38,395 nt of DNA, taken from Fibrobacter sp. (GTDB lineage: Bacteria > Fibrobacterota > Fibrobacteria > Fibrobacterales > Fibrobacteraceae). A program made the translations under genes and the position numbers. Shown here in pieces: positions 15,492 to 18,680 of this stretch. Numbering within the stretch: position 1 is the stretch's first letter; every line of letters starts with the position of its first letter. The DNA lies in contig JAKSIF010000025.1 in assembly GCA_024398965.1 (NCBI GenBank), positions 1-38,395 of the forward strand. The letters are read 5' to 3'. The notes under the pieces are model-generated. The model saw nothing but the letters and a program-made list of their open reading frames with translations. It ran no database searches and had not been told where the DNA came from.

Positions 15492-15665
15492 TCACTTGCC
15501 GGTGAGAGCGGCCAACTGCGCCTCGAGTTCCGCAATTCTGCGATCTCTTTCAGTCAACGCACGGGCTTGCTCATCGATGATCTTCTGGCTGCGTTCGCGC
15601 TCTTTTTCACGTTCATCTTCCCTAGCGAGCTGGATTTCCTGTTCCCATGTCATGTAGCGCTCCAT
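15492..15665 (-). CDS. Stand-alone Rpn C-terminal tail, cassette 1 (putative RpnS-like antitoxin)
   Basis: Encodes 57 residues beginning MERYMTWEQEIQLARED and ending LEAQLAALTGK. It is a charged coiled-coil tail equal in position to residues 219-292 of the Rpn nuclease at 16566-17444, without any nuclease domain. The coding part is identical by eye to cassette 2 except at the 3' end, where it has the LTGK ending of the second rpn gene (17711-18661). A GGAG sequence six bases before the second Met (in GGAGCGCTACATG) is the same ribosome-binding site found inside the full gene, so translation may start at M5. It could be an expressed antitoxin-like peptide, or a pseudogene fragment; the intact frame, promoter and terminator favour expression. 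Confidence 0.6.
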   Translation of the reverse strand: MERYMTWEQEIQLAREDEREKERERSQKIIDEQARALTERDRRIAELEAQLAALTGK

Positions 15666-15833: not shown

Positions 15834-16004
15834 TTATTTCTGCATCTTGGCCAACTGAGCCTCGAGTTCCGCAATTCTGCGATCTCTTTCAGTCAACGCA
15901 CGGGCTTGCTCATCGATGATCTTCTGGCTGCGTTCGCGCTCTTTTTCACGTTCATCTTCCCTAGCGAGCTGGATTTCCTGTTCCCATGTCATGTAGCGCT
16001 CCAT
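15834..16004 (-). CDS. Stand-alone Rpn C-terminal tail, cassette 2 (putative RpnS-like antitoxin)
   Basis: Encodes 56 residues, MERYMTWEQEIQ to LEAQLAKMQK. It shares its central segment (DEREKERERSQKIIDEQA) with cassette 1 and its last residues (KMQK) with the full Rpn at 16566-17444. It is 18 residues shorter than that gene's tail, because one block of the KDRALTEK-type coiled-coil repeats is absent and nearby residues differ. The GGAG ribosome-binding site before the second Met is retained. It has its own promoter-like sequence and terminator. The tail variant it encodes matches neither complete rpn gene in the window, so it may derive from, or act on, another Rpn. Confidence 0.6.
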   Translation of the reverse strand: MERYMTWEQEIQLAREDEREKERERSQKIIDEQARALTERDRRIAELEAQLAKMQK

Positions 16005-16172: not shown

Positions 16173-16397
16173 TTATTTCTGCATCTTGGCCAACTGAGCC
16201 TCGAGTTCCGCAATTCTGCGATCCTTTTCAGTTAATGCACGATCCTTCTCGGTTAAAGTCTGGGCCTGTTCGGTCAACGCACGGTCCTTCTCCTCGATGA
16301 TCTTCAGGTTGCGTTCGCGCTCTTTTTCGGTAGCTTTCTCGCGTTCATCTTCCCTGGCGAGCTGGATTTCCTGTTCCCATGTCATGTAGCGCTCCAT
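16173..16397 (-). CDS. Stand-alone Rpn C-terminal tail, cassette 3 (putative RpnS-like antitoxin)
   Basis: Encodes 74 residues, MERYMTWEQEIQ to LEAQLAKMQK. From the second Met onward it is identical to residues 223-292 of the complete Rpn next to it. It therefore reproduces exactly the protein that the internal start of that gene would make, but from a separate transcription unit. The tail is a coiled coil with repeated blocks (EKDRALTEQAQ, EKDRALTEKDR). The junction with non-rpn sequence falls within the bases just before GGAGCGCTACATG, so the ribosome-binding site was kept and the codon before Glu changed from CAG to ATG. Confidence 0.65.
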   Translation of the reverse strand: MERYMTWEQEIQLAREDEREKATEKERERNLKIIEEKDRALTEQAQTLTEKDRALTEKDRRIAELEAQLAKMQK

Positions 16398-16457
16398 AGA
16401 GGCTTCGCCTCAATTGTGAGTTATGAATTACGAGTTACGAGATTTTCTGTCAGGTAA

Positions 16458-16486
16458 AATATATTCCAAAGTCAATTAAACGACAA
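16458..16486 (-). promoter_or_regulatory. Candidate promoter of cassette 3
   Basis: Third identical copy of TTGTCG (16486-16481), 17 bases, TATATT (16463-16458) on the minus strand, just downstream of the terminator of the full rpn gene. Confidence 0.5.
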
Positions 16487-16537: not shown

Positions 16538-16559
16538 AAAAAAGGTCCCACAGGGGACC
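16538..16559 (-). terminator. Terminator after the first rpn gene
   Basis: Same six-pair GGTCCC/GGGACC hairpin (16544-16559) and U-tract (16543-16538) as in the cassettes; it begins seven bases after the stop codon. Confidence 0.85.
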
Positions 16560-16565
16560 TCGCTT

Positions 16566-16778
16566 TTATTTCTGCATCTTGGCCAACTGAGCCTCGAGTT
16601 CCGCAATTCTGCGATCCTTTTCAGTTAATGCACGATCCTTCTCGGTTAAAGTCTGGGCCTGTTCGGTCAACGCACGGTCCTTCTCCTCGATGATCTTCAG
16701 GTTGCGTTCGCGCTCTTTTTCGGTAGCTTTCTCGCGTTCATCTTCCCTGGCGAGCTGGATTTCCTGTTCCCATGTCAT
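16566..16778 (-). CDS. Internal in-frame gene: C-terminal tail of Rpn from M223 (RpnS-like)
   Basis: A 70-residue product in the same frame as the full nuclease, starting at ATG 16778 after AGGAG (16789-16785) with an ideal six-base spacer. It would consist only of the coiled-coil tail. In E. coli the equivalent small protein, made from an internal start, binds and blocks the full-length nuclease. That this start is used here is inference, supported by the same arrangement in the paralogue and by the stand-alone copies that keep the same site. Confidence 0.6.
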   Translation of the reverse strand: MTWEQEIQLAREDEREKATEKERERNLKIIEEKDRALTEQAQTLTEKDRALTEKDRRIAELEAQLAKMQK

Positions 16779-17444
16779 GTAGCGCTCCTGCGTCTGGTTA
16801 TCGGTCTGGTACCACTTTACCTTGGTGTCTATTTCCTCGGTCTCCGTGGAGTCAGCAGTGTTGGTTGCGAAATACTTCAGGTACGGCTTGAGGGGATGCT
16901 CGTCCGGAAGTTTTTTATACTCGTTAAAGATATAAAAATTCTTGAAGGTGCGGTCGTTCAAAGCGACATCTTTATTCTCCACCGCGAAATTCTGGAAACT
17001 GTAAATAGGCAGGTCCTCCCCAAAGATGTCATCTGGGCAGATGAAAAGCACGTACTGGTCTTTGAGACTCTTGTACATGGTGCCCCTGTGCAGCTCGTGA
17101 GTGTCGCGAATGGACTGGTAGTAGCGGGCGCGCTTGGGAAGTTCCTTTGTGTCCTTCACCTGCATCTCGAGGTCAAAGGAGCTGATGGTCTCGCCGTTCT
17201 CGTCGATCTGCTGGGTGAACACATCGTAGCGGACGCTCTTGCTGAAGATGCTCACCTGTTCCATCTTTTCCTGCTCGGGCTCCTTCAGGTCGTAGATTTT
17301 GATGCCGAGGGCGGCCTCGATGAAGGGCTTGGCGATTTCCTTGTGGCTCATGACCAGCGGGAAAACGAAACTGTTGGTGATGGTGAATTTGGGGAGAACG
17401 ATGGCGTCCGCGCCAAAGTCCTCCGAAGTCTTGCTTTCGTTCAT
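16566..17444 (-). CDS. rpn: Rpn family PD-(D/E)XK nuclease (PDDEXK_2 type), complete
   Basis: A 292-residue Rpn-family protein (long annotated as putative transposase; shown in E. coli to be DNA nucleases linked to recombination and phage defence). The nuclease core is in the first 190 residues: FTITNSFVFPLVMS (20-33), the metal-binding Asp in VRYDVF (D74) and the ExQ variant of the catalytic motif in FDLEMQV (E93, Q95). After a Thr/Glu-rich hinge (196-206) comes a coiled-coil tail (about 224-292) with repeated EKDRALTEK blocks. AGGA lies seven bases before the start ATG. A second strong ribosome-binding site precedes M223 inside the gene. Three extra copies of the tail lie downstream, and a divergent paralogue lies upstream. 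Confidence 0.88.
   Translation of the reverse strand: MNESKTSEDFGADAIVLPKFTITNSFVFPLVMSHKEIAKPFIEAALGIKIYDLKEPEQEKMEQVSIFSKSVRYDVFTQQIDENGETISSFDLEMQVKDTKELPKRARYYQSIRDTHELHRGTMYKSLKDQYVLFICPDDIFGEDLPIYSFQNFAVENKDVALNDRTFKNFYIFNEYKKLPDEHPLKPYLKYFATNTADSTETEEIDTKVKWYQTDNQTQERYMTWEQEIQLAREDEREKATEKERERNLKIIEEKDRALTEQAQTLTEKDRALTEKDRRIAELEAQLAKMQK
16785..16789 (-). promoter_or_regulatory. Internal Shine-Dalgarno (AGGAG) in rpn
   Basis: AGGAG overlaps codons 219-220 (CAG GAG) and is six bases from ATG codon 223. It is at least as strong as the site used for the full-length start. Confidence 0.65.
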
Positions 17445-17649: not shown

Positions 17650-17678
17650 AAAAAAATCCAACCCCATGCGGGGCTGGA
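17650..17678 (-). terminator. Terminator after the second rpn gene
   Basis: Stem of nine pairs, 17657-17665 with 17670-17678. The only non-Watson-Crick position is G-U on the minus-strand transcript, followed by seven U (17656-17650). The sense of the G-U pair supports function on the minus strand. Confidence 0.8.
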
Positions 17679-17710: not shown

Positions 17711-17935
17711 TCACTTGCCGGTGAGGGCTGCAATCTGCGCCTTGAGAGAGGCGATTTCAGCATCCTTGGCGGCAAGGTCAGCGTCCTTGGCAGCAAGATC
17801 TGCGTCCTTGGCAGCGAGATCTGCGTCCTTGGAGGCAATGTCCGCTTCTATTTCGGCGAGTCTCTGCTCTGCAGCCTCCACCCTTTTTCGCTGTACGTCA
17901 GCAATAGTCTCATAGGGCGGCCTAATGAAATCCAT
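17711..17935 (-). CDS. Internal in-frame gene: C-terminal tail of the second Rpn from M243 (RpnS-like)
   Basis: A 74-residue product starting at ATG 17935 in the frame of the full gene, after GAGGAGG (17950-17944) with an eight-base spacer. It would contain MDFIRPPYETIADVQ and then the heptad-repeat tail. The ribosome-binding site is much better than that of the full gene. Use of this start is inference from the sequence and from the known E. coli RpnL/RpnS gene-within-gene arrangement. Confidence 0.6.
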   Translation of the reverse strand: MDFIRPPYETIADVQRKRVEAAEQRLAEIEADIASKDADLAAKDADLAAKDADLAAKDAEIASLKAQIAALTGK

Positions 17936-18661
17936 CTTGAAAACCTCCTCAAAAGTTTTGGAAAGCCAACTTCCCAAATATACATCAATCGACGTCAACA
18001 AGTCAAGAGTCTCCTGACTGTAAGGCTTTTCGCCGAGCCGGTCCAGGGCGTTCTTGAAAATGTCGCTGTGCGCCTCGGGATTGCGGGCATACTTCATCGC
18101 AATGATGAACAGGCAAAGCCGTGGGCTGAACTTGTGGAGGCTCGTTTCGTCTGCAATGTCGTCGACGTCCAGGAAAATGCACTTGAAGGGAAGGACTATG
18201 TCCCGAAGGATTTCTGGAAAACGTTTCAACTCGCTATCCAATGGGTTCCACGTTTCGTTGCCGTTGTAGAGGATGATGGCGACGGAGGGGATTCCCTTGC
18301 TAGCATTGTTCTTGAGCTTTTCCACCATCATGTGGTAGTGATACTTGCGAAGCTGCTCCATTACGTTGTCGTCGCGATAGGACTTGTGCTCCAGCAGGAA
18401 ACCTACGCAAACCTGTACCGGATTACCTTCTTGCAGGTATTCCTTCTTCACGTTGGCCCGGAATGCAAGGTCTGCGTATCCTGTACTTGCGGTGTCGCTA
18501 AAATCCCCAGGAATGCGAACGAGGGTGTCCATGTCCAAAAGGTCGATGATGCCCTTCAGGTACGCATGTATGCTGGCCAGGTAGTCGATAAATTCAAGAA
18601 ATGTGGTGACATCTGCAAGGATATCCCTGCAGAAGGAGTCGTGGGGAATAATTTTATTCAT
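17711..18661 (-). CDS. rpn: Rpn family PD-(D/E)XK nuclease (YhgA-like / transposase_31 type), complete
   Basis: A 316-residue protein of the Rpn/YhgA-like family, divergent from its neighbour. The metal-binding Asp is in GYADLAF (D64) and the catalytic ExK is in LLEHKS (E91, K93), followed by the family's RKYHYHMMVEKL helix. The C-terminal quarter (about 243-316) is a coiled coil with four near-perfect heptads of the type AAKDADL and ends AALTGK. An excellent ribosome-binding site inside the gene precedes M243. The leader has a strong GC-rich hairpin (18681-18701), and the start has only a weak Shine-Dalgarno, so full-length translation may be kept low. Its 3' end is nearly the same as that of cassette 1, a sign of past recombination between paralogues. 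Confidence 0.88.
   Translation of the reverse strand: MNKIIPHDSFCRDILADVTTFLEFIDYLASIHAYLKGIIDLLDMDTLVRIPGDFSDTASTGYADLAFRANVKKEYLQEGNPVQVCVGFLLEHKSYRDDNVMEQLRKYHYHMMVEKLKNNASKGIPSVAIILYNGNETWNPLDSELKRFPEILRDIVLPFKCIFLDVDDIADETSLHKFSPRLCLFIIAMKYARNPEAHSDIFKNALDRLGEKPYSQETLDLLTSIDVYLGSWLSKTFEEVFKMDFIRPPYETIADVQRKRVEAAEQRLAEIEADIASKDADLAAKDADLAAKDADLAAKDAEIASLKAQIAALTGK
17763..17846 (-). repeat. Four 21-bp tandem repeats encoding coiled-coil heptads
   Basis: Units at 17763, 17784, 17805 and 17826, each encoding a heptad like (A)AKDADLA. Seven-codon units preserve the coiled coil and the frame when copies are gained or lost, so tail length may vary between strains. Confidence 0.9.
17944..17950 (-). 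promoter_or_regulatory. Internal Shine-Dalgarno (GAGGAGG) in the second rpn gene
   Basis: GAGGAGG encodes part of Phe-Glu-Glu-Val and lies eight bases before ATG codon 243. It is a near-perfect anti-SD complement in the coding strand. Confidence 0.65.
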
Positions 18662-18680
18662 TCATTTTCTTTGTTCTGTG

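Follow-up and report, generated by a model that had tools for sequence, protein, structure and literature searches.

Zhong et al. (2023; PMC10327210) described RpnL as a toxic DNA nuclease that is blocked by RpnS, a product of an internal start in the same gene. E. coli rpn genes have an internal transcription start, stand-alone RpnS copies such as ypaA lie downstream, and repeat number decides which RpnS fits which RpnL (PMC10327210). A C. difficile rpn gene, cloned and tested in E. coli, also yields RpnS (PMC10327210). The internal site of E. coli rpnA reads AAGGAG-AGTTTA-ATG244, and the solved RpnAS chain begins at residue 244. Another intragenic product, the subunit Cas11d, is also made from an internal start (cited in PMC10327210). 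In the main text of PMC10327210 we looked for a synonymous-constraint analysis and found none.

We analysed a 38,395-nt stretch of DNA from Fibrobacter sp. (contig JAKSIF010000025.1; hereafter the window), which carries two rpn genes. As in E. coli RpnA-E and RpnP2, we found a PF04754-type nuclease, an internal Shine-Dalgarno (SD) and ATG at the nuclease/tail boundary, a candidate internal promoter (a promoter-like box), a variable helical tail and predicted stand-alone RpnS copies downstream. Unlike those systems, Fibrobacter belongs to a different phylum, the box is TATATTT and not an E. coli promoter, tails lengthen in heptad-type units and not in four-residue repeats, three downstream cassettes differ in length and carry their own promoter-like sequences, and the genes of a second, PDDEXK_2-like subfamily are laid out in the same way. 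The C. difficile gene shows that RpnS can be translated internally from a gene outside Proteobacteria. Cas10d/Cas11d and other genes with internal starts are alike in making a C-terminal part as a separate protein; Cas11d, however, is a required subunit and not an inhibitor. A reading of the window made from its sequence alone (the sequence-only reading) had extended the gene-within-gene model outside Proteobacteria; such an extension had been made before, with C. difficile. New here are the phylum Fibrobacterota, the heptad rather than tetrad repeats, the cassette array and the comparative evidence for an embedded promoter.

Two rpn genes with predicted internal start sites

The YhgA-like gene (gene 2, RpnL, 316 aa; 17711-18661, minus strand) matched PF04754 (Transposase_31, YhgA-like) in a profile search (E 8e-14) and consists of a PD-(D/E)XK-type nuclease domain of the Rpn/YhgA family and a coiled-coil tail. 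D64...E91-H-K93 is invariant in the YhgA-like alignment and M243 nearly so. The top Foldseek matches included restriction endonucleases, at weak scores (best E 0.009). In the predicted structure the nuclease extends to residue 241, followed by a low-confidence linker (242-252) and a single helix (253-314), which places Met243 at the nuclease/linker boundary. The tail helix contains the heptad AAKDADL, encoded by a 21-bp tandem repeat of 3.6 copies (17757-17832, minus strand; TRF); the four-amino-acid tail repeat was not seen in gene 2, whose unit is 21 bp/7 aa, though the tail is likewise variable and helical. A terminator-like hairpin with a T run lies 3' of the gene (17650-17673, minus strand) and is common to cassette 3, described below.

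Met243 is encoded by an ATG at 17935-17933 (minus strand), in frame with the ORF 18661-17711. It is preceded by the SD GAGGAGG (17944-17950, minus strand) with an 8-nt spacer, TTTTCAAG, and the minus-strand sequence across the whole site reads AAAACTTTTGAGGAGGTTTTCAAGATGGATTTC. Given the results of Zhong et al., the E. coli rpnA start and the gene 2 structure model, we read the site as the start of RpnS. It very likely supplies the ribosome-binding site (RBS) and start codon for a nested gene, the outer frame encoding an RpnL nuclease toxin and the inner one an RpnS tail antitoxin. The full-length protein would be the toxin; the internal ATG would yield a separate 74-residue tail (predicted ORF 17711-17935, minus strand); and this RpnS would pair with the RpnL tail helix and, like its counterpart in E. 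coli RpnA, keep the nuclease from acting. We infer that the embedded signals are transcribed and translated and that the tail acts as an antitoxin. The full-length start of gene 2 is overlapped by an out-of-frame mini-ORF, ATGAATGAATAA (18654-18665), which could lower RpnL translation.

The PDDEXK_2-like gene (gene 1, RpnL, 292 aa; 16566-17444, minus strand) is of the TIGR01784/PF12784-like type, its TIGR01784 match (E 6e-13) falling just below the cut-off. The two nucleases are thus of different subfamilies, as the sequence-only reading had said. At Met223, gene 1 reads CAGGAG-CGCTAC-ATG (internal site 16776-16789, minus strand; AGGAG at 16789-16785, ATG at 16778-16776). Tails after Met223 in its relatives measure 46-80 aa, in steps such as 46/53/60. 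The gene is followed by a terminator, GGTCCCCTGTGGGACCTTTTTT (16538-16559, minus strand).

Strength and codon-level conservation of the internal sites

SD strength was calculated as duplex energy with CACCUCCUU, the standard anti-SD; it was assumed for all energies because the 16S 3' end is absent from the assembly of the window's genome. Energies were -12.4 kcal/mol at Met243 and -6.6 at Met223. In 400 kb of background from 20 stretches of the same genome, -12 kcal/mol or lower was found at 0/2030 internal in-frame ATGs and at 0.4% of predicted starts, and -6.6 was reached by 4.3% of internal ATGs. Taken singly, Met243 is therefore exceptional, unlike Met223. When single genes were shuffled synonymously with the genome's codon usage, P was 0.055 for Met243 and 0.17 for Met223; permuting each gene's own codons instead gave 0.22 and 0.59, respectively. 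As the values for Met243 are marginal, we rejected single-gene shuffling as proof.

At the family level, the internal SD energy averaged -8.61 kcal/mol in 20 YhgA-like clusters (<80% identity; Fibrobacteraceae) vs -4.23 for random synonymous sequences (z = -7.8), and none of 500 randomisations was as low. The corresponding values for 11 PDDEXK_2-like clusters were -6.02 vs -3.06 kcal/mol (z = -5.3; 0/500). Judged by codon choice among relatives, this family-level test is decisive and carries the proof that a single gene cannot give. The sequence-only reading had proposed such a check and had argued that the same arrangement in two genes makes chance less likely; both subfamilies bear this out, with internal SDs far above, and not merely equal to, the shuffled expectation, since SD-ATG is conserved beyond it. 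Glutamate beside the YhgA-like site is written GAG in 20/23 cases, vs 161/556 elsewhere in those genes and 24% of Glu codons genome-wide. In 34/44 clusters the internal SD is stronger than the best candidate full-length start. That the full-length start of gene 2 is weak was confirmed (-0.2 kcal/mol), and it fits the suggested excess of tail over nuclease; RBS strength alone, however, is probably not the basis of such an excess, because a conserved promoter-like box precedes the ATG.

We scanned every alignment column for nucleotide agreement relative to synonymous randomisations; the clusters are related, but the z-scores count them as independent. The YhgA-like set comprised 128 sequences in 44 clusters below 75% identity (343 columns). 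For those columns that align to gene 2, z had a median of 1.1 and a 95th percentile of 6.1. The highest values fell at columns 227 (z 25.5), 228 (22.2), 247 (15.4) and 219 (14.4), followed by 229 (13.6), 239 (12.6), which is the SD, and 226 (11.2); codon 220 had z 6.8. Column 247 was judged an artefact of serine's two unlinked codon sets, as was Ser33 of the PDDEXK_2-like family (z 17). Among the 28 PDDEXK_2-like clusters, SD codon 219 was the most constrained of 280 columns (z 17.5), its Arg, Gln or Lys being written AGG, CAG or AAG in 28/28. One branch of this family builds the SD from CAG GAG (Gln-Glu) and the other from ACR AGG with, in most cases, AAR or ATH as the next codon (Thr-Arg-Lys/Ile); in the latter, Arg at the SD is AGG in 20/20, vs 18% elsewhere. 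Even below 45% identity, the SD was present in 9/10 YhgA-like clades and the box in 7/10. The codon-level evidence indicates that the internal RBS of rpn genes is under selection inside the coding sequence. Such a scan is a simple way to test whether other nuclease genes, too, hide antitoxins.

A promoter-like box inside the YhgA-like genes

The most constrained YhgA-like columns, 227-229, spell a -10-like box, TATATTT, which in gene 2 lies 47 nt before the internal ATG (17976-17982, minus strand). It is present in 39/44 clusters below 75% identity, where about 1 was expected, and in 31/35 below 70% identity, vs ~0.5-1.1 expected from synonymous choice; in 29 of these 31 box-bearing clusters it stands 47 nt before the ATG column. 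Its first codon is Val-GTA, Ile-ATA, Leu-CTA or Leu-TTA, its second Tyr-TAT and its third Leu-TTG/TTA or Phe. Most of these codons are rare, and the nucleotides persist although the residue before Tyr228 varies among V, I and L. Genome-wide, TATATTT is 20-fold more frequent in front of genes (0.48/kb in the preceding 120 nt) than in coding sequence (0.024/kb), and TATATT[TA] is concentrated <=60 nt from gene starts. On its conservation and genome-wide placement, TATATTT inside YhgA-like genes is probably a promoter. A candidate -35, TTGACT (18001-18006, minus strand; codons 219-220, z 14.4 and 6.8), lies upstream of the box, with an 18-nt spacer; we hold it tentative because TTG as a -35 partner of the box was not enriched in genome-wide upstream regions.

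The YhgA-like genes would thus contain a whole embedded expression unit, with the promoter-like TATATTT, a leader of about 35 nt, the SD and the ATG, from which the tail could be made without the nuclease. Comparison among relatives establishes these embedded signals and the selection on them. A literature search for transcription starts mapped in F. succinogenes found no such paper; in a phylum for which we found no transcript start data, codon-level conservation exposes selection on an internal RBS and, very probably, on an internal promoter. In other families of the phylum, most genes examined have SD-ATG at the boundary without the TATATTT box. The PDDEXK_2-like family offers only a weak candidate internal promoter, tentatively TTTTATATCTTTA, ~150 nt before Met223 of gene 1 (16926-16938, minus strand; Tyr171, z 8.5). 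TTTTATATnTTT in this interval is kept in the family, its Tyr being TAT in 26/26, and it is possibly a weaker internal promoter of gene 1.

Stand-alone tails and alternative readings

Several relatives provide natural experiments. L005 and L006/L025 have no Met at the column; their in-frame ATG stands 3-4 codons further upstream, behind an SD of its own, and these shifted starts read AAGGAGGCGATCATG and AGGGAGGCTATCATG; we had considered L005 and L025 as losses of the start and rejected this, as the DNA shows shifted starts. In L034, whose tail is truncated, ATG, SD and box are gone together. At L003/L004/L007/L008 (G000:C5, about 96100-99200), a tandem pair of identical YhgA-like rpn genes is flanked by nuclease-less remnants in the same genome. 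Box, SD and start are all retained in these remnants, although one of them has TATATTG as its box and GTG instead of ATG. Two genomes (G044, G046) have a second tail copy after the full gene, in which the Met223 equivalent is the sole ATG and has the same AGGAG. Stand-alone tails start at the Met223 position.

Such copies near rpn genes were found in G044, G046 and G048, and three lie in the window, as tail ORFs in tandem downstream of gene 1 that the sequence-only reading had overlooked (16397-15492, minus strand; copy number from a 151-contig draft assembly). Cassette 1 (16173-16397, 74 aa) is identical in DNA to the gene 1 tail, cassette 2 (15834-16004, 56 aa) is 18 residues shorter, and cassette 3 (15492-15665) encodes 57 aa. 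A shared intergenic stretch containing the promoter-like TTGTC-N18-TATATTT precedes each of them, and its box begins 66 nt ahead of the first ATG (TTGTC at 16486, 16093 and 15754; TATATTT at 16463-16457, 16070-16064 and 15731-15725, respectively). Every cassette begins ATGGAGCGCTACATG, and therefore either ATG may start translation. The GGTCCC hairpin terminator of gene 1 recurs after cassettes 1 (16166-16145) and 2 (15827-15806). The 3' end of cassette 3 resembles that of gene 2 instead (~90% identity over ~98 nt, terminator included), which points to tail-end exchange between the subfamilies. A related genome of a second species (G048) has the same tail-cassette unit, its contig ending inside a second unit.

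The cassettes may form an archive of antitoxins differing in length specificity that also serve as donors for tail switching, a reading we regard as speculative and somewhat doubtful. They would protect against Rpn nucleases of other tail lengths, whether brought in by gene transfer or created by recombination, and would donate tails to replace that of the full-length gene. The archive reading fits because cassette 1 equals the current tail, the other two cassettes are of different lengths, the 3' end of cassette 3 resembles that of the other nuclease subfamily and G048 has a similar array. The array offers a testable case for the question of what lies behind the great variation in RpnS tail length.

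A separately made tail might support the nuclease, as a structural subunit or helper, instead of inhibiting it; Cas11d offers a precedent for an intragenic subunit. We consider this unlikely: in the only relatives that have been studied, RpnS is an inhibitor (PMC10327210), and separate cassettes with differing tail lengths suit specificity or immunity better than stoichiometry. The SD-like sequence could also be a translational pause that lets the nuclease domain fold, with the ATG incidental. Its position exactly at the domain boundary of the gene 2 model agrees with that, but a pause needs neither an ATG at fixed spacing nor a compensating shifted ATG, nor would it call for the promoter-like box 47 nt ahead of the ATG, and the same position is where stand-alone tails start, all of which makes a pause highly improbable. 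Least credible is that amino-acid constraint on E-E-V-x-x-M and codon bias produced the motif by chance. Gene 2 alone would leave room for this, given its marginal shuffling values, but the family tests refute it in both subfamilies, GAG is strongly over-represented beside the site relative to its genome-wide share, and the SD is maintained across different amino acids.

Two further observations concern the cassettes and the wider distribution of the genes. Before the ATG of each cassette lies a repeat, CTCGTAACTCGTAATTCATAACTCACAATT, followed by a hairpin, GAGGCGAAGCCTC (16398-16441 for cassette 1). In 438 kb of the genome this combination occurs in three copies only, all before cassettes, with partial matches in G000:C1, G046:C16 and G048:C14. 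A contig titled Lachnospiraceae (Horse_feces7 MAG007_43), possibly mis-binned, carries an rpn gene (L197) that shares 58% identity with its Fibrobacter counterpart.
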